From assembly GCA_027489105.1 (NCBI GenBank), contig JAIYAJ010000360.1:1-37205 (forward strand): a stretch of DNA of 37,205 nucleotides. The letters run 5' to 3'. Of this stretch, positions 4,746 through 17,233 are shown piece after piece (position 1 is the first letter of the stretch; each line of letters starts with the position of its first letter). Below the pieces are notes generated by a model. That model worked only from the letters and a program-made list of their open reading frames with translations, was not told the origin of the DNA and made no database searches. A program made the position numbers and the translations under genes. Source of the stretch: Zymomonas sp. GTDB lineage: Bacteria; Pseudomonadota; Alphaproteobacteria; Sphingomonadales; Sphingomonadaceae.

Positions 4746-6146
4746 ATGTGGGCTTCTTTGCGACTGGAAACACGGCTGATCTCTCGTGACCGTGGCGCGA
4801 TCGTCACGACCCTGACCCTCGCCGTCCTTCTGGTGACAGCCTTTCTAGCCGGACTTCGCGCGGACCAGTCGGAGACTTCCGCGCTCAAGTCCGCAGCGCA
4901 GCAGGTGCAAGCCGAATGGAACGCCCAGCCACCCGTCAATCCGCACATGGCCGCGCATTACGGCATTCTCGTCTATCGTCCCCGCGCGCCGCTCCAGGCG
5001 ATTGACGCAGGGGCGCTACCCTATCAGGGCTCTGTGACCTTCCTCGAAGCCCACAAGCGCAACGCGCCTATGCTTTCACCGGCATCGGTACGCAACGCCG
5101 ACAGTCGCTATGGCGGCACGCGCTTTTCGCCGCTGCTCCAGATCGCGGGCGGGTTCCTGGTGCTGGTGCTCGGGTTCCTGATCGGCTCCCGCGAGGCTCG
5201 CCACGGCATGACGCTGCTGCTGCGCGGGGCCGGTGTACGTGGCACCGCATTTGTTGGGGCCAAGGCACTGGCGACGCTGGGTCTTGTGGTGCTGGCAGCG
5301 GCACCGTCAATCGTCTTTGCCGCGCTGACCATCGGTGGCGGTGATCCAGGCGCGCGGTTCGCAGCGCTTGCCAGCGCGTCACTCATCCACCTGATGATCT
5401 TGGCCAGCGCCGGCGTTGCCGCAGGATTATGGTTGGGTGCCGCCCGCTTCGGGCTGGCGGCGATCACCTTTGTCTGGGCGATGAGCGTGATGATCCTCCC
5501 CCGCATCGCCGACACCGTTGCCGAACGCGTCGCGCCGCTCACCGAGCGGGCGCTGACCGCGCAGATCCAGGCAGACTTCGCGCTAGGCCCCGACGGCCAT
5601 GGCGAAAATGATGCCAATGCTCTGTTCGAGAAACGCGTCCTCGTCCAATATGGCGTGACCCGGAAGGAGGACTTGCCGGTCAATCTGGACGCGCTGCTGA
5701 TGCAGGCAGACGAGGATTATCGCGGATCGGTCTACGACCGCCGGCTGGCCGAGGCGGACGCGGTGCGCCAGCGGCAGGACGCGATCCGCAGCTTGGCATG
5801 GGCGTTCGGCCCTACACCCGCCATGCTCGATCTGTCGGAGCGGATCGCGGGCGCCGATGCCAGCACGCAGCGCCGGTTCGATGTGACCGCGGAGGCATTC
5901 CGGCGCGATCTGATCGGTCGGCTCAATCGCCACATGGCGGAGAATTCAAGGACAGGCGATTGGGAGTGGACGCCCGCAGACCGCTATTTTGCAAGCTTCA
6001 CTGCTTTCAACCCCACCACGCCACGTCTGCGTAACGATCTGCCCGGACTGATGCCAGCTGCTGCAACACTGAGCCTATGGGCTGCAGTGGCCGGACTGGC
6101 GCTGCTGTTCGCGGCGCGTCGTTTCGACCGGAGCGCGCAGTCATGA
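4746..6146 (+). CDS. ABC-2 type transporter permease, DUF3526 family (first of two)
   Basis: A 466-residue inner-membrane protein. Hydrophobic segments lie at about residues 18-37, 130-147, 172-195, 206-231, 234-253 and 440-460. Large hydrophilic regions sit between the first and second and between the fifth and last, the layout of DUF3526/ABC-2 permeases. Such proteins form the membrane part of ABC exporters; the substrate is unknown. The ATG follows a GGCGG ribosome site. Its stop overlaps the next permease gene (ATGA), so the two probably pair as a heterodimer. No ATPase is encoded on this strand. The nearest is the convergent gene at 7599-8315. The operator-like site at 4714-4730 suggests shared regulation with the TonB receptor genes. 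Confidence 0.8.
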   Translation: MWASLRLETRLISRDRGAIVTTLTLAVLLVTAFLAGLRADQSETSALKSAAQQVQAEWNAQPPVNPHMAAHYGILVYRPRAPLQAIDAGALPYQGSVTFLEAHKRNAPMLSPASVRNADSRYGGTRFSPLLQIAGGFLVLVLGFLIGSREARHGMTLLLRGAGVRGTAFVGAKALATLGLVVLAAAPSIVFAALTIGGGDPGARFAALASASLIHLMILASAGVAAGLWLGAARFGLAAITFVWAMSVMILPRIADTVAERVAPLTERALTAQIQADFALGPDGHGENDANALFEKRVLVQYGVTRKEDLPVNLDALLMQADEDYRGSVYDRRLAEADAVRQRQDAIRSLAWAFGPTPAMLDLSERIAGADASTQRRFDVTAEAFRRDLIGRLNRHMAENSRTGDWEWTPADRYFASFTAFNPTTPRLRNDLPGLMPAAATLSLWAAVAGLALLFAARRFDRSAQS

Positions 6147-7594
6147 TCGGAGCGCTGGTTAGGCTTGACGCACGGTTGATGTGTCGATCGACGGCGGCAT
6201 GCATATTGACGCTGCTGTTGGCGGTGACCGCTGGCCTGGCACTGGCAAGCGGTCTGGAATGGCGTGACCGCTATGTCAGTGCAGCCGATGCCGCGCGTGA
6301 ACAGGTAGCAAAGGACGCAACCCTATTGCGCGACGTCTATACCGGCATCGAACGGGGCACCGTCATACCCACGGACGACAGCACTTATGACGGCGTCGGC
6401 AAATATGTTCCCGATCCCCGCGACCCCTATGTCGCGGGCTATTATCATACGTTGCTGGCCGAGTTGGAAGCCGGGCCGCTTCTGGGGCTGGCCACGGGAA
6501 GCTCCGAACTGCGCGCGACCCACCACAAGCTGAAGACAGTGCCGCTCTACGCCTTGTTGAGGATCGGGGAGCCGGCCGAGCGCGTCAATCCGGGCGCACT
6601 TGCCGCCGGCCGGTTCGACCTGTTGGCCTTCATCATGTTCCTTTGTCCGCTGGCGCTCGCCGTGCTGCTGTTCGATGCGACAGCGCGCGAGCGCGAGGGC
6701 GGGATAAGCCCTTTACTCGCAGGGCTCGGTGCGAGCCAGCGCGAGTTGCTGCTGGCACGCGCGGTCACACGCGGCGGCCTCGTGATCGGTATCGCCGTGA
6801 TCGGGTCGCTGATCGGCATTGCGCTGGCTGGCGCATTTGGCAGCGCCGCCGGCTTCTGGTGGATCTTGGGCACGATTGCCTATCTCCTGTTCTGGACAGC
6901 ATTGTTGCTGCTGGTCGCGTCGACGGGACTGAGCGTTGTGGGCTCGGCTGCAGTGGCGGTCGCACTCTGGGTCGCGCTGCTGCTGGTGTTGCCCGGCCTG
7001 ACCGAACGGGCACTGCGTCCCGATGGCCTGCTGGAACCCCGGGCACTCGCCGATGCCGATGTGCGCCGCGTTCTGCGGGTAGAAGGCGGCCCCGATGCGA
7101 TCGCGGCGACGATAGCCCGGGTTGCGCGCGAATATTGGGGTGTCGACTTTGCGACAGCGCCCATATGCGCCCAGCGCGATGGCGTGATCGATGAATATGT
7201 CCGCCGCCGACTGGCCGACGAACGCTATGCTGCCGCGATGCGGCAAGGCGCAGCGCGCGAAGCGTTGTTCGACCAGCGGCTCGACCGCTGGGGCTGGCTC
7301 GCACCGGGGCTCGCCTTTCGCCGGGCGATGGAACAGGTCGCGGGCAGCGACCCCGCCCGGCAGCGGACGTTCGAACTGGCGGTGATCGACTATCACGCGG
7401 CCCGGCGCAATCAGGTCACATCCGCCATCTTGGAATGCAAGCGGTTAGACCGCGCGGCATTCGAGGCTGTTCGCGCTTTCCATTTCGATGAACCGACGGA
7501 ACAGATCGCGCTGTTCACCGGGATCATCGCCGTAATCGGCTTTGCGGCGCTGTTTGCAGCCGCAGCGCTGCGGCCGCGTTCACTGCTGCGCTGA
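6143..7594 (+). CDS. ABC-2 type transporter permease, DUF3526 family (second of two)
   Basis: A 483-residue inner-membrane protein related in layout to the preceding permease. It has an N-terminal anchor (about residues 15-37), a roughly 130-residue extracytoplasmic part, a cluster of helices at about 175-300, a second large soluble region, and a final helix near the C-terminus (about 455-475). Both halves carry the DUF3526-type pattern, including the DATAREREGGISPLLAGLG stretch after the second helix. The ATG overlaps the upstream stop, so translation is coupled. The gene ends 4 bp from the stop of the convergent ABC ATPase gene. Function as half of an exporter is inferred from family and context; the cargo is unknown. 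Confidence 0.8.
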   Translation: MIGALVRLDARLMCRSTAACILTLLLAVTAGLALASGLEWRDRYVSAADAAREQVAKDATLLRDVYTGIERGTVIPTDDSTYDGVGKYVPDPRDPYVAGYYHTLLAELEAGPLLGLATGSSELRATHHKLKTVPLYALLRIGEPAERVNPGALAAGRFDLLAFIMFLCPLALAVLLFDATAREREGGISPLLAGLGASQRELLLARAVTRGGLVIGIAVIGSLIGIALAGAFGSAAGFWWILGTIAYLLFWTALLLLVASTGLSVVGSAAVAVALWVALLLVLPGLTERALRPDGLLEPRALADADVRRVLRVEGGPDAIAATIARVAREYWGVDFATAPICAQRDGVIDEYVRRRLADERYAAAMRQGAAREALFDQRLDRWGWLAPGLAFRRAMEQVAGSDPARQRTFELAVIDYHAARRNQVTSAILECKRLDRAAFEAVRAFHFDEPTEQIALFTGIIAVIGFAALFAAAALRPRSLLR

Positions 7595-7598
7595 GGGT

Positions 7599-8315
7599 TC
7601 AGCCGGCGGCTTCCAGAAAAAAGCGCCGCTCGATCTCCTCCGCCGACAGGTTGGCGGGATCGAGCGTCAGCGCGATCTTTCCCCGGCTCATCACCAGCAC
7701 TTCGCTGGCTACTTCGCGGGCGCGCCAGATATCGTGTGTGGCCATCAGCACGCCTACGCCCGCCGCCGCCGTCCGCCTGAGCGCCTCGTTGAATTCGGCC
7801 GCCGCGTGCGGATCAAGGCCGCTGGTTGGCTCGTCGAGCAGCAGCAGCGACGACTGGCGGCTGAGCGCAAGCGCCAGGCCGACCTTTTGCCGCCTCCCCT
7901 TCGAATAGGTCACCGCGCGCCGGCCGAACGCTTCGGAGGGAAGGCCCGCAGCAGCCAGAGCGGCATCGAGATTATCGGCGGAAAGTCGCATTCCGGAGCC
8001 GATTTCCAGCAGATGCGCGAGATTTTCCCTCCCACTCAACTCCTCATAAAGGGCGACGTTTTCAGGCAGATAGGTCGTCACACACCGAGCCTGATCGGGC
8101 GCGGATACAAGGTCCGTCCCGCCAACCCGGATCGTCCCGCTGTCAGGGGTGATGAACCCCGCGCACAGCTTCATCGTCGTGCTCTTCCCCGCGCCGTTCG
8201 GACCGAGCAGCGCGACGATCGACCCGGCCGGTACGCTGAAGGACAGGCCATCTACCACCGTCCGGTTCCCATAATTCTTGGTGACGGCGTCGAGGGTCAG
8301 GGCTGACTGTGTCAT
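7599..8315 (-). CDS. ABC transporter ATP-binding protein
   Basis: A 238-residue single-domain ABC ATPase. Walker A is GPNGAGKST at residues 38-46. The signature region reads YSKGRRQKVGLA in place of the standard LSGGQ, as is common in ATPases serving ABC-2 exporters. Walker B is LLLLDEPTSGLDP, and the switch His lies in MATHD. Its ATG overlaps the stop of the TonB receptor gene (ATGA), so it is made together with that receptor. It most likely energises the two DUF3526 permeases encoded on the opposite strand and ending 4 bp away, since they have no other ATPase nearby and this one has no other permease. Confidence 0.9.
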   Translation of the reverse strand: MTQSALTLDAVTKNYGNRTVVDGLSFSVPAGSIVALLGPNGAGKSTTMKLCAGFITPDSGTIRVGGTDLVSAPDQARCVTTYLPENVALYEELSGRENLAHLLEIGSGMRLSADNLDAALAAAGLPSEAFGRRAVTYSKGRRQKVGLALALSRQSSLLLLDEPTSGLDPHAAAEFNEALRRTAAAGVGVLMATHDIWRAREVASEVLVMSRGKIALTLDPANLSAEEIERRFFLEAAG

Positions 8316-10426
8316 GACGAGGCTCCGAACCGACGGCTGAGCGTGAACAGGAACTGGCGGGGCGCCAGCGGATAGAGTGCGAACAAGTTGGTGACATAGC
8401 TGTTGCTATTGGTCACGTTGTTGACGTTCAGCCCCAGCCGCCAGCAGTCGGCAAGTTCATAGGCGACGCCAAGGTCAAGCCTCGCATTGGGTGGAATGAA
8501 GATGGTGGAAGGCAGGCTAGCCTGTATGCGGCTAGCATAGGTCAGGCCGGCGTTCGCGCTCAGCCCTTTCAATACGCCATCGTCGACGCTGTAGCGGACG
8601 AAGGCGGATGCACTGTGTTCCGGCGCGGCAGGCAATTGTTGGCCGAAGTTGGCGTCGGTCTTCTCCGCGACCCGTGTCCGGTTCCAGGCGTAGGTCAGAA
8701 TCATATCGAGGTGGGGCAGCACCCGCCCGGTCAGGTCGAACTCTGCTCCGCGGCTGGTCTGCTCGCCCACCGCGATCGACTGGGCGAAATTACCGACATC
8801 AGGGATGACGACATTCGATCGCCGTATATCGAAATAGGCGAGTGTCGCCAAAGCCCGGCCACCGAACAGTTTCTGGCGAACGCCGGCTTCATATTGGCGA
8901 ACCTGGTCGGGCGGAAACACTTCGCCATCACTGTCGAGCGCGAAGCTGGGCGAGAAGCTCTTGGCCCAGTTGGCGAACAGGATGCTATCGTCAGCGATCG
9001 ACCAGGTCACGCCCAAGCGGGGCGACGGCTGGCTGTCGCTGATCCGGTCGCCGGAACCGTTGAAGATGCTTTCGTTTGTCTGCCAGTCATAGCGCAGCCC
9101 CGCCAGCACCGCGAGACGCGGTGTGATCTGGCTGAACACTTGGCCATAGACGGCATCACCCTGATAGGTGAAAAATCCCGAAAATTGCGGCTCCAGCGGC
9201 ACAATTCCGGCGGGTGGGTTCACGGGATCTAGGACGTCCAGCGGTGGCAGCGCCCGACCCGATATGGCGTAGTCGTATCGGTTCTGGAACCGCTCATAAC
9301 CGGCTAGAAAGACGGTCTCCACGCCAAGGCCCTTGACCGTGTAGATAAGGTCGCTCTGGATCGTATGCCGCTCAATCTGTTGCGGCCCCTGAAAGGTGAA
9401 CCTGTCGAAGGTCCGCCCGTCAGGCTGAACCGCCAGCCCGAGCCGCGACGAGCCGATCCGGATATCGTAGTTCGAATAATTGCCCGCCACACGAAGCGTT
9501 AGAGCGTCGGTCAGCCGGAAATTGCCTTCGCCGGCCAGCGTGTAGTTGGTTTCTCGCGTCTGGCTTCGATCCGGCGCGTGAAAGGTCTGGCTAAGGTCCA
9601 GATCGAAGGTCGTCAGCCCAGCAGGCAGGGAGCCGTCGAGCAGTGGCAGCCCCTCGAAGAACGTGTAGCGGCGATTGATATAGCTGCCGTCAAGCCGGAT
9701 CGACACGCGGTCGTTCGGCTCAAATGCGACCGATGGGGACACGACGAACTTCCGGGAATCGACATTTTCTTGAAAGCTACCGCTGCTTTCCGCCGCGCCG
9801 GTCAGCCGGTATTTGAGCGTGCCGCCTGGCGCCAGCGGGCCACCGACATCGCCTTCTATCCGGTAGAAGCTGTCAGAGCCACCATAGGCTCTGACCTCTG
9901 CCGCGAACCGGTCGCGAGGACGCTTGGTAATGATGTTGACATTACCCGCGAACGCGCCGGTGCCGCCATAGAGGCTACCGATCGGGCCCTTGAGGATCTC
10001 GATGCGTTCAATGTTACTCAAATCACCGGGATTGTCGCTCACGCGCACGCCGTTCTGCAGGGTCTCGTAATTGGCGAAGAAGCCGCGAATGACATAGCCG
10101 ACGCTGGTACCGAACCCCGGGAGCGTCTGCACGCCTGAGACATATTTGGTGACATCCTGCGGCAGGGTCGCGGCCGTTGCGTCGATCAACTCCTGCGGCA
10201 GGATCCGGATAGTGTTGGGCAGCTTTTCGACATCGACCGGAAAGCGACTCCCGGTCGAGGATTGCTTGGCGAGCAGCCCCTCGGTTTCAGTGAACGCGTC
10301 GCCGACGACGATGATTTCCTGGTCTTGGGTGGCGCCTGGCGCAGAATCGACAAATTGAGCGACCACAGGCGTCGCGCCAGAAGTTGCAACAATGCCCACA
10401 GTGGCGAGCAAAATGGCGCGTGTCAT
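8312..10426 (-). CDS. TonB-dependent siderophore-type receptor
   Basis: A 704-residue outer-membrane receptor. It has a signal peptide (residues 1-24, ending PVVAQ), a TonB-box-like EIIVVGD shortly after, and a full plug domain with LPNTIRILPQELI and the RIEILKGPIGSLYGG motif. A roughly 550-residue barrel of alternating strands follows, ending near FLFTLSRRF. The plug style is that of siderophore receptors (FhuA/FecA type), so iron-chelate import is likely; the actual ligand is unknown. The open frame continues upstream to 10477. ATG 10426 is chosen because it starts the signal peptide and has GGGGGA seven bases before it. It shares a transcript with the ABC ATPase and a 70-bp control region with the divergent receptor gene. 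Confidence 0.9.
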   Translation of the reverse strand: MTRAILLATVGIVATSGATPVVAQFVDSAPGATQDQEIIVVGDAFTETEGLLAKQSSTGSRFPVDVEKLPNTIRILPQELIDATAATLPQDVTKYVSGVQTLPGFGTSVGYVIRGFFANYETLQNGVRVSDNPGDLSNIERIEILKGPIGSLYGGTGAFAGNVNIITKRPRDRFAAEVRAYGGSDSFYRIEGDVGGPLAPGGTLKYRLTGAAESSGSFQENVDSRKFVVSPSVAFEPNDRVSIRLDGSYINRRYTFFEGLPLLDGSLPAGLTTFDLDLSQTFHAPDRSQTRETNYTLAGEGNFRLTDALTLRVAGNYSNYDIRIGSSRLGLAVQPDGRTFDRFTFQGPQQIERHTIQSDLIYTVKGLGVETVFLAGYERFQNRYDYAISGRALPPLDVLDPVNPPAGIVPLEPQFSGFFTYQGDAVYGQVFSQITPRLAVLAGLRYDWQTNESIFNGSGDRISDSQPSPRLGVTWSIADDSILFANWAKSFSPSFALDSDGEVFPPDQVRQYEAGVRQKLFGGRALATLAYFDIRRSNVVIPDVGNFAQSIAVGEQTSRGAEFDLTGRVLPHLDMILTYAWNRTRVAEKTDANFGQQLPAAPEHSASAFVRYSVDDGVLKGLSANAGLTYASRIQASLPSTIFIPPNARLDLGVAYELADCWRLGLNVNNVTNSNSYVTNLFALYPLAPRQFLFTLSRRFGASS

Positions 10427-10459
10427 CGTTATCCCCCTATGCAGTATAAACGTGTATGG

Positions 10460-10485
10460 TATGTGACAACATATCACTGTGACAA
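10460..10485. promoter_or_regulatory. Operator-like repeats between the divergent TonB receptor genes
   Basis: The 70-bp gap between the two receptor genes holds TATGTGACAACATATCA (10460-10476), which resembles the site at 4714. TGTGACAA occurs twice in direct orientation, at 10462-10469 and 10478-10485, a 16-bp period. An imperfect inverted repeat ATGGTATGT-gaca-ACATATCAC spans 10456-10477. On the minus strand TTGTCA followed 15 bp later by TATACT could form the promoter of the minus-strand receptor. Binding here could control both receptors. The regulator is not identified. Confidence 0.5.
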
Positions 10486-10496
10486 GGGGAAGAGAG

Positions 10497-12467
10497 TTGC
10501 GGCTTAGCTATTTGATCGCAGCTATCGCCTCGCCCGTTCCCGTGATGGCCCAATCGCTGCCACGCAATGAGCAGCCTGCGCCATCCGGTCAACAGACGCC
10601 GCCCCCTGTGCTGCGCGCCAATGAGAACGCCGTGACGCAAGCCGAGGACGCTTTCGGAGTCAGCATTGGACGGGAAGAACTCGGTCTTTACAGTAGCAGC
10701 GACATTAGAGGTTTCTCGCCGATAGACGCTGGCAACGCCCGGATCGACGGCATCTACTTCGACCAGTTTCTCCGCCCGATTACCCGCATCCGGCAATCTA
10801 CGACGATCAGAGTCGGCTTGGCGTCACAGGGGTTCGTCTTTCCCGCGCCGACTGGCGTGGTCGATTATGCGCTCCGCAAGCCAGGCAATGAAGCGGGCGC
10901 GTCGGTGCTCGTCGATGCAGATCATTGGGGCAGCGTTTCCGCCGAAGTCGATGCCGTGGTGCCGCTTACACGCGACAAACTCAGTCTGGGATTCGGGGCG
11001 TTCATCGCACAGACCGAGTTCTACAATGCGACCAATGCCTATTCCGACAACCAGGGAATCGTGTTGCGCTGGACGCCAACCCCGGACATAGCGCTAACAC
11101 CGTTCTGGTCGCGTTCATATGTGCGCGACGACGATGCTGGGCAGATCTATGTGCCCGGCGGTGACTATCTGCCACCGCGCATTCCACGCCGCCGCTTCAA
11201 CGGGCCGGACTGGGCGGCCTACACCGGGACTGGCGGACTCTATGGAGGAACAGCGAATTTTCGTGTCGGCCCGCAGACTACCATCGTAGCCGGGCTCTTC
11301 CATTCCTATTTTTCCGACGATCGCAGCGCCGTCAATCTGGCGCTCGACCTTCAGCCCGACGGACGGTTCAATCATCTTGTACTCATCGATCCGCCCTCTC
11401 GCTTCGCCTCGGACAGCGGCGAGGTGCGGATAGCGCAAGGCATCGTTGATGGCGACCGACTACATGGGATCTACGCCACGATCCGCTACCGCAATCGCTT
11501 CCAGCGCTACGACGGGTCGGCCAGCGTCGATCTCGGTCCGCGCGACTTGCGAGAGCGCGTCTTCATTCCCGAACCGCCCCTGACATTCCGCCGGCAATCG
11601 CGCGACCGGATCGAACAATGGACCGGCGGCCTTGCGTATGACCTGCGCTGGCGAGGCCTCGGTGAGCTTTCAATCGGCGTGCAGAAGACGGATTACCGCA
11701 AGCAGGTCGATCGATCGGACACCGGCAGCCGCTTGACGCAGTCCAACCCCTGGCTGTTCTATGCGACCGCCGCGGGGCAAATCAGCGAGACGCTGGTCAT
11801 CTATGGCAGCTTTTCACAGGGGCTGGAGGAAAGCGGGCTCGCGCCCTCCAACGCCGTGAACCGGGGTGAACCCGTGCCCGCGATCCGCACACGACAGTTC
11901 GACGGGGGCATCCGCTGGATGCTTACTCCGGGGCTGAAGCTGATTGCAGGCGGGTTCGATCTTGAGAAGCCCTATTTCAACATCGACGCGAACAATCGCT
12001 TCACTGCACTGGGTACCATCCGCAACCAAGGCGTTGAGCTGTCGTTGAACGGCGCGTTGACGCCCCGGCTCGATCTGGTTGCGGGAGGCGTGTTCCTACG
12101 CCCGCGCGTCACTGGCGCGGCGGTCGATCAAGGGATCGTGGGCGATCGCCCGGTCGGCTTTGCCGCCCGCAACCTGACCATCAATCTGGACTGGCGGCCA
12201 ACCGCGAATCCCGGTGTATCGTTCGATATCCGCGTAACCCACCGGAGCCGCGTGACTGCGACGACGAACAATGCGGTCTCTATTCCTTCACAGACACTGG
12301 TCGATCTGGGAGGGCGCATCCCAGTAAACCTCGGTTCTGCTAAGGGATCCCTGCGTCTATCGGTCTCGAATATCTTCGACGTTGAGGGATTCGATCTGCG
12401 CGGTGCTGGCGCCTATGACATGATTGCCGGACGTCTCGCACAATTGCGGTTCACGATCGACATTTAG
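10497..12467 (+). CDS. TonB-dependent receptor with shortened plug
   Basis: A 656-residue outer-membrane protein. TTG 10497 gives a clean signal peptide (RLSYLIAAIASPVPVMAQ) and has AGGGGA six bases upstream. The GTG at 10479 has no ribosome site, so TTG is preferred. The plug is unusual: after a Pro-rich stretch it goes straight to AEDAFGVSIG...ELGLYSSSDIRGFSP, lacking the long N-terminal plug part and a clear TonB box. A strand-rich barrel follows, ending LAQLRFTIDI with the aromatic/hydrophobic end typical of outer-membrane proteins. Receptors with this AEDAFG/SSDIRGFSP pattern occur in sphingomonads and other proteobacteria. Its ligand is unknown. It is divergent from the siderophore-type receptor and shares its control region. 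Confidence 0.82.
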   Translation: MRLSYLIAAIASPVPVMAQSLPRNEQPAPSGQQTPPPVLRANENAVTQAEDAFGVSIGREELGLYSSSDIRGFSPIDAGNARIDGIYFDQFLRPITRIRQSTTIRVGLASQGFVFPAPTGVVDYALRKPGNEAGASVLVDADHWGSVSAEVDAVVPLTRDKLSLGFGAFIAQTEFYNATNAYSDNQGIVLRWTPTPDIALTPFWSRSYVRDDDAGQIYVPGGDYLPPRIPRRRFNGPDWAAYTGTGGLYGGTANFRVGPQTTIVAGLFHSYFSDDRSAVNLALDLQPDGRFNHLVLIDPPSRFASDSGEVRIAQGIVDGDRLHGIYATIRYRNRFQRYDGSASVDLGPRDLRERVFIPEPPLTFRRQSRDRIEQWTGGLAYDLRWRGLGELSIGVQKTDYRKQVDRSDTGSRLTQSNPWLFYATAAGQISETLVIYGSFSQGLEESGLAPSNAVNRGEPVPAIRTRQFDGGIRWMLTPGLKLIAGGFDLEKPYFNIDANNRFTALGTIRNQGVELSLNGALTPRLDLVAGGVFLRPRVTGAAVDQGIVGDRPVGFAARNLTINLDWRPTANPGVSFDIRVTHRSRVTATTNNAVSIPSQTLVDLGGRIPVNLGSAKGSLRLSVSNIFDVEGFDLRGAGAYDMIAGRLAQLRFTIDI

Positions 12468-12572: not shown

Positions 12573-13550
12573 TCAGGCGTGCGGGCGCGATGCCACCATC
12601 GGTCGGGCGGCGGCGCCCTGGGTCATCATGTCGGCGAGCGAGCGGCCCGAGAGCCAGGCGAATTCGACGCGGGGGCCGAGCAGCCAGTCGCCGCAGGCAC
12701 CGAGCTGAAGCCGGGCATTCCAGAGCGAACCTTGATCGGCGCCACGCGTCATCGCAAAGCGCCAGCGGTGGGCGGCGATGCTCAATATCTCCGGCGCGGC
12801 GGTCTTGGCTTCGGCGACCAGCGCGTCGAGCAGCACACCGGCCACGATCGGGGCTTCCATTTCCACATTGCGCGCGGACCAGTTGCCGCCTGCCTGCACC
12901 ACCCAGCTTTCCGGGCCATCACGGCCGGGCTTGGCGCTGTTGCGGGCGGCCCAGGAGATCAGGCCGCGGTTGCGCAGATGGTCCCCGTCGATCGACAGCC
13001 GGTCCCCGAAGGCGATCATGGCGGTCCAGCAGGGCTGCGACCGCGCCATCATCGCGTGGGTCGCCATGGCGATGTCGTGCAGGCCCACCAGCGCCGCCGC
13101 CTGTTCGGCCGGCACCGCAATGATGGCGGCATCGAAGGGCCCGAACTTCTCCGGGCCGACCTTGACCCACCAGCCGTCCCGACCGTGCATCAGGCCGTCG
13201 ACATGGTGGAGGTGACGGACATCGAGATGCTCGGCCAGATGCTTGAGCGGGGCGTTCATCGTCGGAACGCCGACCCAGGCGTCCGCGCCGGCCTCGGCCC
13301 AGGGCTCGGCCAGTCCGGCCTTCTGCCAATGCCGGACCTCATCCAGGAAAGCGGCTTCCCGGACGGTGAAATATTGCGCCCCATGGTCGAAGCTCGCGGC
13401 GCCCTGCGACGTGTTGACGCGTCGGCTGGACATGCGTCCGCCCGTCCCCCTGCCCTTGTCGAACAGGACGACCTCGCTTCCGCGTTCCTGCAGTTTTTTG
13501 GCACAAGCAAGGCCGGCGATGCCGGCTCCGACGATAGCAACCCGTTTCAT
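12573..13550 (-). CDS. Renalase-like FAD/NAD(P)-dependent oxidoreductase
   Basis: A 325-residue flavoprotein. The N-terminal FAD-binding fold is shown by VAIVGAGIAG at residues 5-14, the acidic strand end FDKGRGTGGRMSSRR, and the FDHGAQYFT motif typical of the bacterial renalase-like group. The C-terminus has an FAD-contacting GACGDWLL segment. Bacterial renalases oxidise misformed dihydronicotinamides; other members are amine oxidase-like, so the substrate here is open. The open frame reaches 13730, but ATG 13550 starts the Rossmann fold and overlaps the folE stop by one base (TGATG). The gene is therefore translationally coupled to folE. Confidence 0.82.
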   Translation of the reverse strand: MKRVAIVGAGIAGLACAKKLQERGSEVVLFDKGRGTGGRMSSRRVNTSQGAASFDHGAQYFTVREAAFLDEVRHWQKAGLAEPWAEAGADAWVGVPTMNAPLKHLAEHLDVRHLHHVDGLMHGRDGWWVKVGPEKFGPFDAAIIAVPAEQAAALVGLHDIAMATHAMMARSQPCWTAMIAFGDRLSIDGDHLRNRGLISWAARNSAKPGRDGPESWVVQAGGNWSARNVEMEAPIVAGVLLDALVAEAKTAAPEILSIAAHRWRFAMTRGADQGSLWNARLQLGACGDWLLGPRVEFAWLSGRSLADMMTQGAAARPMVASRPHA

Positions 13551-14161
13551 CAATATCCCATGAGCGACAGCAATTCCTTGCGGCTGCTCTTGTCTTCCAG
13601 AAAACAGCCGAGCAGACGGCTCGTGACCATACCGACGCCCGGTGTCCGGACGCCGCGTCCGGTCATGCAGCCATGCTGCGCTTCGATGACGACTGCGACG
13701 CCATGCGGGTTGAGATTCTCCCATATGCACTGGGCGACTTCCGCCGTCAGTCGCTCCTGGATCTGGAGGCGCCGCGCGAAGCCATGCAGCACACGGGCGA
13801 GCTTCGATATGCCGACGACCCGATTACGGGGCAGATAGGCGATAGAAGCCTTGCCGGTGATCGGAGCCATGTGATGCTCGCAATGGGACTGGAACGGTAT
13901 GTCCTTGAGCAGGACGATCTCGTCATAGCCGGCCACCTCCTCGAAGGTGCGCGTCAAATGGAGCGCAGGATCCTCACGATAGCCTTCGCAATATTCCCGC
14001 CAGGCGCGCCCGACGCGGGCGGGCGTATCGCGCAGGCCTTCGCGGTCGGCGTCCTCGCCGGCCCATTCGATCAAGGTGCGGATTGCGTCCTGAACATGGG
14101 TCGGGACGATCACCTTGCCATCTTCATCCTTTTCCCCAAGCCCGGGCGAGAAGTAGTTCAT
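13550..14161 (-). CDS. folE: GTP cyclohydrolase I
   Basis: A 203-residue enzyme that converts GTP to dihydroneopterin triphosphate, the first step of folate/pterin synthesis. The zinc ligands and catalytic region are visible: FQSHCEHHMAPITGKASIAY with Cys and His, KLARVLHGFARRLQIQERLT in the middle, and EAQHGCMTGRGV with the second Cys near the C-terminus. Length matches the family. ATG 14161 is used; the longer frame upstream has no homology. The FAD oxidoreductase gene is coupled at its 3' end. The LOV-HTH gene is divergent from it, so their promoters share the 142-bp gap. Confidence 0.95.
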   Translation of the reverse strand: MNYFSPGLGEKDEDGKVIVPTHVQDAIRTLIEWAGEDADREGLRDTPARVGRAWREYCEGYREDPALHLTRTFEEVAGYDEIVLLKDIPFQSHCEHHMAPITGKASIAYLPRNRVVGISKLARVLHGFARRLQIQERLTAEVAQCIWENLNPHGVAVVIEAQHGCMTGRGVRTPGVGMVTSRLLGCFLEDKSSRKELLSLMGY

Positions 14162-14303
14162 CGGACAGCCCTTTCGTGAGCATCGGGAGAAAAACGGTAA
14201 TGCCGGTGCAGCTTTGTCTTGCCGACAGGGGGGCCGATGCAGCAACATGTCCAAAGGGCCATGGGGATTATCCGGCGGCGAAATCACTGCTACGGAAGGC
14301 GCG

Positions 14304-14891
14304 ATGTCTGTTTCTGATATGATAGCTGGGAGCGCGGTCGCCGCGGTCATTAGCAACCCCCGCCTGCCCGACAATCCCATTGTCGAATGCAACGACGCCT
14401 TCGTGGCTCTCACCGGCTATTCCCGTGACGAGATCATCGGGCGCAACTGCCGCTTCCTGCGCGGGGCGAACACCGAACCCTGGCTGACGCAGGCGCTGCG
14501 CAGCGGCGTCCATAATCAGCGGCCGGTGATGGTCGAGATATTGAACTACAAGAAGGACGGTACGCCGTTCCGCAATGCGGTTCTGGTCGCGCCGATCTTC
14601 GGAGCCGATGGCGAGATCGAGTATTTTCTGGGCTCGCAGGTCGAGATCGAGGATCCCGCGCTGGGCAGTTCGCCCCGCCGCGAAAATGCGCATGACAAGA
14701 TCGCCGGCCTCTCGGACCGGCAGCGCGAAGTGTTGGTCGCCATGGCCGCCGGCAAGCTCAACAAGCAGATCGCCTATGATCTCGGGCTGACCGAACGCAC
14801 GATCAAGATGCACCGTGCAGCGATGCTGCGCGCGCTTGGCGTGCGGACCGGCGCGGAGGCGATCCGGATCGCGATCGAGGCGGGCTACTGA
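14304..14891 (+). CDS. LOV-HTH blue-light transcription factor (EL222-like)
   Basis: A 195-residue protein closely resembling EL222 of Erythrobacter litoralis. The LOV domain (about residues 5-125) carries GRNCRFLRG, with Cys49 as the expected flavin-adduct residue, and the stretch NYKKDGTPFRNAVLVAP that is nearly the same as in EL222. A LuxR-type helix-turn-helix occupies residues 135-195 (LSDRQREVLVAMAAGKLNKQIA...TERTIKMHR). In EL222 blue light forms a Cys-FMN bond, frees the HTH and allows dimeric DNA binding; that is family knowledge. ATG 14304 has GGAAGG just upstream; ATG 14247 is an alternative with a poor ribosome site. The gene lies 67 bp before cofE on the same strand and divergent from folE, which suggests it regulates one or both. 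Confidence 0.92.
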   Translation: MSVSDMIAGSAVAAVISNPRLPDNPIVECNDAFVALTGYSRDEIIGRNCRFLRGANTEPWLTQALRSGVHNQRPVMVEILNYKKDGTPFRNAVLVAPIFGADGEIEYFLGSQVEIEDPALGSSPRRENAHDKIAGLSDRQREVLVAMAAGKLNKQIAYDLGLTERTIKMHRAAMLRALGVRTGAEAIRIAIEAGY

Positions 14892-14912
14892 AGCGAACCG
14901 AGCGAGCGGCGC

Positions 14913-14940
14913 GGTCCGTGTTGGGCGTTCGGTCCGGTCC
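14913..14940 (+). promoter_or_regulatory. Cluster of GGTCC half-sites before cofE
   Basis: The 67-bp gap between the LOV-HTH gene and cofE contains GGTCC three times, at 14913-14917, 14931-14935 and 14936-14940. As I recall it, the EL222 binding consensus is two RGNCY half-sites separated by two A/T bases, and GGTCC fits RGNCY. Here the spacing is not the consensus one, so this is only a candidate autoregulatory or cofE-control site. Confidence 0.25.
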
Positions 14941-14958
14941 ACCGGCTGTCACATCCCG

Positions 14959-15726
14959 ATGACCCGCCAAGCCACCGTCACACTTTGCGCGCTCGACAGG
15001 GTGCCGATGATCTCGCCGGGCTGCGATCTGGCAACAGTTACCGTCGACGCGCTGCACGCGACCGGTGAACGGCTCTGCGATGGCGATATCATCGTGCTCG
15101 CACAGAAGATCGTCTCGAAGGCCGAGGATCGGCTCGTTGCGCTCGACAGCATTGCCCCCTCCCCTGAAGCGATCGAGCTTGCGGCCGAATGCGACAAGGA
15201 TCCGCGCCTCGTCGAGCTGATCCTGTCGGAAAGCCAGGAGGTCATGCGGGTGCGCAAAGGCGCGCTGATCGTCCGGCACCGTCTCGGCATCGTGCTGGCC
15301 AATGCCGGCATCGACCAGTCCAACATCGACCAGCAAAGAGAGGCCGCCCTGCTGCTGCCGGTCGATCCCGATGCGAGCGCGGCAAGAATCCGGGAGGGGT
15401 TGAAGGCGGCGACGGGCGTCGCCCCGGCGGTCCTGATCGTCGACAGCCTCGGCCGCGCCTGGCGCACCGGCACGACCGGGACGGCGATCGGCCTCGCGGG
15501 CATGCCCGGCCTGCTCGACCTGCGCGGCCGGCCCGATCTTCACGGCCGGCCGCTCGCGAGCAGCGAACTGGGGCTGGCGGACGAAGTTGCGGCTGCAGCG
15601 TCGCTGGTCATGGGCCAGGCGGATGAGGGTCGCCCGATCGTTCTTGTCCGGGGCGTCGAACTGGCACAGCGCGACGGCAGTGCCGCCGAGTTGATCCGTC
15701 CCCGCCATCTGGACCTGTTTCCATGA
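14959..15726 (+). CDS. cofE: Coenzyme F420:L-glutamate ligase
   Basis: A 255-residue cytosolic enzyme that adds glutamates through gamma-links to F420-0 using GTP, the tail-building step of coenzyme F420. Signature stretches are [16 protein letters not shown] near residue 40, the [16 protein letters not shown] segment near residue 110, and [18 protein letters not shown] near residue 160. Length matches stand-alone archaeal CofE and the N-terminal part of actinobacterial FbiB; the extra FbiB nitroreductase-like domain is absent. ATG 14959 is used because the frame upstream (to 14815) lies in the LOV-HTH gene. The stop overlaps cofD (ATGA). Confidence 0.93.
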
Positions 15727-16649
15727 TCGTCGCGCTCGCTGGCGGCGTCGGCGGGGCACGGATGGCCCATGGTCTCGCCGCCTGTCTGCCGCCGGACGAC
15801 CTGCTGGTGGTCGTCAATGTCGGCGATGACTTCGAGCATCTGGGTCTGCCGATCTGCCCCGATCTCGACACCGTCTGCTACACGCTCGCAGGACGGAACG
15901 ACCGTGAACGCGGCTGGGGCCTCGCCGGTGAGAGCTGGAGCTTCATGGCCGCGATCCGCGATCTCGGCGGCGAAGACTGGTTCAATCTCGGTGACCGCGA
16001 TCTCGCGACGCACATCATACGCCGAACGCTTCTTGAGACGCAGAGCCTGTCGGACGTCACCCGCCATATCGCCGACCGGCTGGGCATCGCTCACCCCATC
16101 GTGCCGGCAACCGACGACCGCCTGCGGTCGATCGTCCACAGCGAAGAAGGCGTGCTCGCCTTTCAGGACTATTTCGTGCGCCGTCGCGCCGAGCCGGTGT
16201 TCACGTCGATCCGCTTCGAAGGCGCGGAAGCGGCACGGCCCTCACCCGCTTTTGATGCGGCGCTCGACGATCCCGCTCTCGAGGCGGTCATCCTCTGCCC
16301 GTCCAACCCGATCCTCAGCATCGCACCCATATTGGCGATCGGCGACGTCCGGGACCGGCTGCGACGTTCGCCCGCGCCGGTGGTTGCCGTGTCGCCCTTC
16401 ATCGACGGCGACGCGATCAAAGGGCCGGCCGCCAAGATATTCAAGGAGCTGCATATTCCTTGTAATCCACAGGGTCTGATCTCCTGCCTCGGCGACGTGG
16501 TCGACGCACTCGTCATCGACGGCGCGGACGCGGCAGCTTCCTGCCCGGACCTTCCTGTCCTCGTGACCGATACGCTGATGCGCGATGATGCAGGCCAGCA
16601 GCGACTTGCTCGCGAGGTGCTGGCGTTTGCCCGTTCGCTGAAACGATGA
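15723..16649 (+). CDS. cofD: 2-phospho-L-lactate (or analogue) transferase of F420 synthesis
   Basis: A 308-residue CofD/FbiA family protein. It transfers the activated phospholactate-type unit to the deazaflavin Fo, giving F420-0 or dehydro-F420-0. Conserved parts are [12 protein letters not shown] at residues 7-18, [19 protein letters not shown] at about 32-50, [13 protein letters not shown] at about 88-100, and [13 protein letters not shown] at about 192-204. A C-terminal [10 protein letters not shown] follows. It is coupled to cofE and cofC by ATGA overlaps on both sides. Which C3 acid (2-phospholactate, phosphoenolpyruvate or 3-phosphoglycerate) is used cannot be read from this sequence by eye. 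The Fo synthase genes (cofG/cofH or fbiC) are not in the window. Confidence 0.94.
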
Positions 16650-17233
16650 GGACGATGTGCGTCCTCGCGGCGCGACCGCCCGAGGAGGGCAAGAGCAGAC
16701 TTGCCGATTCCCTGACAGCCCCCAAGAGATACCGATTGAATATCAATATGTTCAGTCATGTTCTCAATGTGGCGTGCAAGACCTTCGAGACAAGGAACTT
16801 GTTGCTGGTGACACGCTCGCCCGATCTGGCTTCGGCAGCGCGCGCCGCGGGTGTGGATGCGATCGAGGAGGGCGGGACCGATCTGAACACGGCCTTCGCG
16901 CAAGCGCGCGCTCTCGCTACGCAACGCGGCGCAGAGCGTCTGGTCACGCTGAGCTGTGATCTGCCCTATCTCGACGTCGCCGACCTGGAGGCGCTTCTGG
17001 CTGCCCCAGGCGAAGTCGTGATCGCGCCCGACCGCCATGGCACCGGCACCAATGCGCTGGCACTATGCCCGCCCGACGCGATCGAATTCGCTTATGGACC
17101 GGATAGTTATCGTCGCCATTTCGAGGCGGCGATGAGACAGAGCCGGACAGTGAACGTGATCGACCGTCCGGGGCTCGCGAAGGATGTCGACCTGCCCGCC
17201 GAGCTTAGGGAACTGCTCGACGGGCAAGGGTGA
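16646..17233 (+). CDS. cofC: CofC-type guanylyltransferase of F420 synthesis
   Basis: A 195-residue nucleotidyltransferase that uses GTP to activate phospholactate, phosphoenolpyruvate or 3-phosphoglycerate for CofD. It has the family pattern GKSRLADSL near residue 15, the acidic CDLPYLDVADLEAL metal region at about residues 109-122, and APDRHGTGTNALAL at about 131-144. The N-terminus reads CVLAARPPEEGKSR, where many homologues have a Lys-containing IPVKPL-type start, so substrate choice may differ. The ATG overlaps the cofD stop. The stop abuts the pepA stop, forming TGATCA. Confidence 0.88.
   Translation: MRTMCVLAARPPEEGKSRLADSLTAPKRYRLNINMFSHVLNVACKTFETRNLLLVTRSPDLASAARAAGVDAIEEGGTDLNTAFAQARALATQRGAERLVTLSCDLPYLDVADLEALLAAPGEVVIAPDRHGTGTNALALCPPDAIEFAYGPDSYRRHFEAAMRQSRTVNVIDRPGLAKDVDLPAELRELLDGQG

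Follow-up and report, generated by a model that had tools for sequence, protein, structure and literature searches.

The window examined here, a whole stretch of 37,205 nucleotides of Zymomonas sp. DNA, carries a gene for an EL222-type LOV-HTH regulator that is divergent from folE and a renalase-like gene. The arrangement is conserved, an operator lies within it at a near-fixed position, and the F420 genes cofE, cofD and cofC follow on the other side of the regulator. We consider it probable that this is a light-switched divergon of the EL222 type, in which the LOV protein would activate its own gene together with folE and the renalase-like gene, and that cofEDC lie downstream through local genome history and not as a dedicated target. 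The features concerned are as follows.

12573..13550, minus strand: renalase-like FAD-dependent oxidoreductase, second leftward gene of the divergon, after folE (best solved relative bacterial renalase 4zcc, 156 bits)
13550..14161, minus strand: folE, LOV-linked GTP cyclohydrolase I paralogue (TIGR00063, 201.6 bits; cut-off 181.6)
14244..14262, plus strand: predicted EL222-type operator, AACATGTCCAAAGGGCCAT (27.2 bits; this clade contributed no sites to the matrix)
14304..14891, plus strand: LOV-HTH blue-light transcription factor of the EL222 type (ATG at 14304, TGA at 14889-14891; Pfam PAS_9 and GerE; EL222 8a5r)
14892..14958, plus strand: LOV-cofE gap, 67 bp, free of operator, terminator-like and plus-strand promoter-like sites
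14959..15726, plus strand: cofE, F420-0:L-glutamate ligase (ATG at 14959; NCBIfam TIGR01916, 255.6 bits; cut-off 180.65)
15723..16649, plus strand: cofD, 2-phospho-L-lactate transferase (NCBIfam TIGR01819, 270.6 bits; cut-off 257.45)
16646..17233, plus strand: cofC, guanylyltransferase (NCBIfam TIGR03552, 146.7 bits; cut-off 105)

The LOV-HTH regulator and its divergent partners

Residue 49 of the LOV-HTH protein is a cysteine of the photoactive type within GRNCRFLRG, NCRFL being the motif that holds the photoactive cysteine of LOV domains. The protein matches Pfam PAS_9 at 63.8 bits (cut-off 27) and GerE at 59 bits (cut-off 23.5), and its best solved relative is EL222 (8a5r), aligned over residues 3-194 at 232.7 bits. 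The cysteine motif, the C-terminal LuxR-type HTH and similarity to EL222 across the full length all place it in the EL222 type, as does an operator near its gene that is of the same kind as the EL222 C120 site, though the natural peak B site misfits and the published consensus is matched with two mismatches. Pfam and the 8a5r alignment thus bear out the preliminary description, made from the sequence alone, of an EL222-like protein with Cys49 and a LuxR-type HTH, and the coordinates agree with its account of a LOV gene lying 67 bp before cofE on the same strand with the cof genes coupled by ATGA overlaps.

On the other side folE runs straight into the renalase-like gene, whose best solved relative is the bacterial renalase 4zcc. 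To see how general this arrangement is we used the best 80 of at least 563 confirmed LOV matches from a scan of GTDB genomes plus two further loci from the genus, so that all tallies of LOV loci describe close relatives. One locus (L070), whose match began after residue 1, was excluded from the operator tally, leaving 81, and of these 59 have folE as the closest divergent partner, 8 have a renalase-like gene and 14 have neither within 1.5 kb. Relatives of the renalase-like gene adjoin LOV in most of the best 80 loci. The cassette-bearing genomes G001, G006 and G013 contain two folE genes each, while G003 and G004 contain one each; in G001, G006 and G003 a folE lies two genes 5' of a photolyase. 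In a tree of folE, the five copies of the genus from that other locus form a clade of their own (100/100), separate from the LOV-linked copies.

The renalase side of the divergon is variable, because a block at 4758-12467, between a gene that we take to be yhhQ and the renalase-like gene, is missing at that place in the two relatives L001 (which has an MFS transporter gene there) and L102. The block contains two DUF3526 membrane proteins, an ABC ATPase and a TonB receptor. A reading of the two genes at 4758-7594 as PepSY proteins was rejected, Pfam assigning them to DUF3526, and the 662-residue ORF at 10479-12467 next to the TonB receptor, which has no Pfam match at E 0.001, may, judged by eye, be a divergent outer-membrane receptor.

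A conserved operator at the divergon

The operator matrix was built from 42 distinct sites, picked by a seed motif from the same upstream regions that were then scored and with L001 and L102 excluded. The window operator scores 27.2 bits, the runner-up in 37 kb only 11.5, and ten shuffled windows, which preserve base composition only (as do all shuffled controls for the operator scans), reach at most 15.3. The conserved consensus upstream of LOV is AACATGACCAAAAGGGCA, and the top seed match falls 53-60 bp 5' of the LOV start in 61 of the 81 loci (from the best 80 of at least 563 matches plus two). When near-identical sites were excluded from the matrix for scoring each locus, an operator of at least 15 bits was found in the same sample at 51 of 59 folE loci, 4 of 8 renalase-like loci and 1 of 14 partnerless loci; since 13 of the 14 partnerless loci stay below 15 bits, the operator is not tied to the LOV gene everywhere. 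Control upstream regions reach this score in 17 of 343 cases, the best 12 of which are a single Sphingomonas site adjoining a photolyase-related gene. Between the window and L102 the last 76 bp 5' of LOV are identical, where cofE is just 76% identical.

The sequences of the EL222 sites and the published consensus, RGNCYWWRGNCY, were taken from passages of PMC10521638. The C120 operator fits our matrix at 16.6 bits, a score equalled by none of 2000 shuffles, while peak B misfits at -0.3 bits, with 1418 of 2000 shuffles as good; the two mismatches noted above are those of the window operator to RGNCYWWRGNCY.

Further copies point to a wider set of candidate targets. Beyond the filtered LOV operators, 33 sites of at least 17 bits lie in 1.40 Mb of loci (the best 80 of at least 563) against one in the shuffled loci, although six of the 33 are the LOV operator itself, having passed the filter because our home-made gene caller misplaces some starts, and several others lack a called gene in their vicinity. 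Eight Sphingomonas-type loci (L002-L008 and L011) share an operator copy (7774-7805 in those loci) flanked by a DPRP photolyase-related gene and a DUF3429 gene, a candidate addition to the LOV regulon as judged from sequence, and in L019 an extra site separates LOV from a co-directional photolyase-type gene. A search of whole genomes with up to two mismatches gave 4 sites in G001, 2 in G006, 2 in G013 and 0 in G003, against 1, 0, 1 and 0 for the reversed pattern. The sole perfect match in G001 and in G006 is the LOV/folE site. The other sites of these two genomes score 12.5-20.7 bits. Two lie within called genes, a third falls where a presumably serS-like gene starts and the fourth is not close to any called gene; none lies at cof, fbiC or a photolyase. 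The LOV operator of G013 was too divergent for this search and scores 23.0 bits with a matrix that included it. Matrix scans of the folE-photolyase groups, over 4.3 kb in G001 and 10 kb in G006, gave maxima of 7.2 and 10.5 bits.

The cof genes downstream of LOV

The CofE, CofD and CofC proteins all exceed their curated NCBIfam cut-offs for F420 biosynthesis, the overlaps lie at 15723-15726 (cofE/cofD) and 16646-16649 (cofD/cofC), and the gene order is that of Rhizorhabdus-type relatives. Six relatives have the same cof-pepA-lptD cluster, in which the place 5' of cofE, held in the window by LOV-HTH, is taken by fbiC (G003, G013) or by the cytochrome bd oxidase genes cydAB (G004, G008, G009, G014; identified by Pfam for one of these four genomes). 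The window cofC is just 63-64% identical to those of its two close relatives, cofD being 75-86% and pepA 90-94% identical. The nonsynonymous divergence (dN) of cofC is 0.26 against both and that of cofE 0.070 against L001 and 0.158 against L102, with LOV itself at 0.007 and 0.009 respectively.

The preliminary description had proposed that the LOV protein might control cof, and not only folE or itself. Comparison supports control of folE and of LOV itself, through the conserved divergon and its operator, and gives no support to control of cof. The matrix scan found no operator in the LOV-cofE gap, that is, immediately 5' of cofE, the top site there scoring 4.8 bits. The gap is poorly conserved, with 45 of 67 bases kept in L001 and 30 of 60 in L102. 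The linkage, whose conservation among sphingomonad genomes had been offered as a check, is confined to the window and two relatives: cof follows LOV only in L001 and L102 of the 82 loci (best 80 of at least 563 plus two), and in a search of 14 genomes of the genus, 13 with cofE, LOV adjoins cofE only in G001 and G006, the LOV of G013 (68% identity) lying on a contig other than that of cofE. In a draw of 397 genomes of the family, 56 have cofE, 111 have LOV and 9 have both, adjacent only in G001 and G006; LOV occurs in 9 of the 56 cofE genomes and in 102 of the 341 that lack cofE, so that the two genes are found together less often than expected (odds ratio 0.45, p 0.036, Fisher test ignoring kinship). 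In a draw of 385 genomes of the class, cofE scores above the cut-off in 57 and LOV is present in 5, G001 alone combining the two. Given the gap without an operator, linkage in three genomes and no positive co-occurrence, dedicated control of cof was abandoned as the leading reading.

The gene 3' of LOV is in any case varied. In the 80 loci with one called (from the best 80 of at least 563 plus two) it is convergent in 40, co-directional within 150 bp in 26 and co-directional farther away in 14. The 26 close genes include 9 DUF969, 4 of a DPRP photolyase-related cluster, 2 photolyases, 3 short-chain dehydrogenases and 2 cofE, families being assigned from a single representative per cluster. In nine loci (L009, L010, L013, L014, L015, L034, L068, L072 and L076) DUF969, followed by DUF979 and DUF2891, begins 4-12 bp 3' of LOV, and these four genes form a conserved arrangement that may be an operon.

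How cof is transcribed bears on what light might do to it. It is quite conceivable, at a little under an even chance, that cofE has a constitutive promoter in the end of LOV or in the gap and is wholly blind to light. The gap is free to vary, and in the four genomes where cofE is divergent from the cytochrome bd oxidase genes it is presumably self-promoted; against this, no plus-strand sigma-70-like site was found in 14100-15100 by a scan that is weak for this group. A working LOV-cofE-cofD-cofC operon, in which the lit LOV protein would boost its own transcript into cof and blue light would induce F420 maturation in the clade, is a tentative alternative that we disfavour. LOV and cofE lie on the same strand at spacings of 67 bp in the window, 67 bp in L001 and 63 bp in L102, the gap has neither a terminator-like site nor an unusually stable fold (z of 0.37, -0.71 and 0.01 in the three genomes), and the LOV promoter is almost invariant beside the poorly conserved gap, which shows no conserved promoter belonging to cofE. 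The few linked genomes and the co-occurrence given above count against it, as do the relatives that retain cofEDC without LOV, and Rho-dependent termination or a promoter within LOV is possible. A historical form of the same idea, in which a light cassette captured cofEDC in the Rhizorhabdus subclade, so that a self-activated LOV promoter would yield a single LOV-cofE-cofD-cofC transcript and blue light would raise both F420 maturation and pterin synthesis, seems to us unlikely. That the LOV protein acts elsewhere in the genome and its neighbours are no longer regulated, HTH regulators often acting at a distance, is very improbable given the low dN of LOV, the unchanged adjoining operator and the sole perfect operator match at the LOV/folE site.

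Most likely, then, cofEDC beside LOV is a lineage-specific adjacency at a place where a light-controlled folE/renalase/LOV divergon landed. Because 14100-15100 contains no terminator-like site, transcripts from the LOV promoter could still read through, and light may raise cof by this route. The rationale first offered for a light input, that Fo serves as a photolyase antenna, is weak because Fo is made by FbiC or CofGH and CofC, CofD and CofE act on it only afterwards. In both relatives (G001, G006) fbiC lies away from the cof locus, adjoining a gene whose G006 copy matches the Pfam domain of F420-dependent NADP oxidoreductases, and the 10 kb around it holds no operator by matrix scan (maxima 9.7 and 6.3 bits).

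A probable light-switched divergon and its predicted regulon

The mechanism that we propose for the divergon takes its first steps from EL222. Blue light would form a bond between Cys49 of the LOV domain and the flavin and so lead to a dimer, and the lit dimer would bind the operator at 14244-14262, light dependence being expected by analogy. Bound LOV would activate its own gene rightward and folE with the renalase-like gene leftward, both directions being part of the model. The output of folE and the renalase-like gene may then supply pterin and flavoenzyme within the photo-response, while cofEDC, lacking an operator of their own, would come under light control solely through transcripts that start at the LOV promoter and run on into them.

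EL222 of Erythrobacter litoralis (PDB 8a5r, 3p7n) has the same LOV and LuxR-type HTH architecture over residues 3-194, and its C120 site fits the conserved operator. The window differs in pointing, from sequence, to a likely genomic target, the folE/renalase-like divergon, and in the misfit of peak B. An output of the same type is already known under a different regulator, because light-response clusters of Pseudomonas mendocina contain folE, a photolyase, an FAD-dependent oxidoreductase and the cryptochrome-like gene cryB, according to passages of PMC9758184. The LitR/LOV regulon of P. mendocina and P. putida described there resembles the window in its folE and FAD-dependent oxidoreductase, the oxidoreductases being likened by description; those species use a LitR/CarH-type regulator with a short LOV protein, whereas the window has a single LOV-HTH protein. 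Our literature search, mostly outside subscription journals, found no paper that assigns a folE regulon to LOV-HTH proteins of sphingomonads, nor any on light control of coenzyme F420 synthesis, in keeping with the preliminary description's remark that it knew of no such control. The literature passages on EL222 DNA binding that we drew on give no native regulon.

EL222 is a heavily used optogenetic tool. Read-through from the LOV promoter, if real, would make the F420 link new biology, and the predicted native regulon of folE, renalase and photolyase-related genes is a better lead than the cof link. With a conserved operator beside folE, renalase-like genes and, elsewhere, photolyase-related genes, a native regulon of EL222-type proteins can be tested directly, and the arrangement has a parallel in the LitR light regulon of Pseudomonas.
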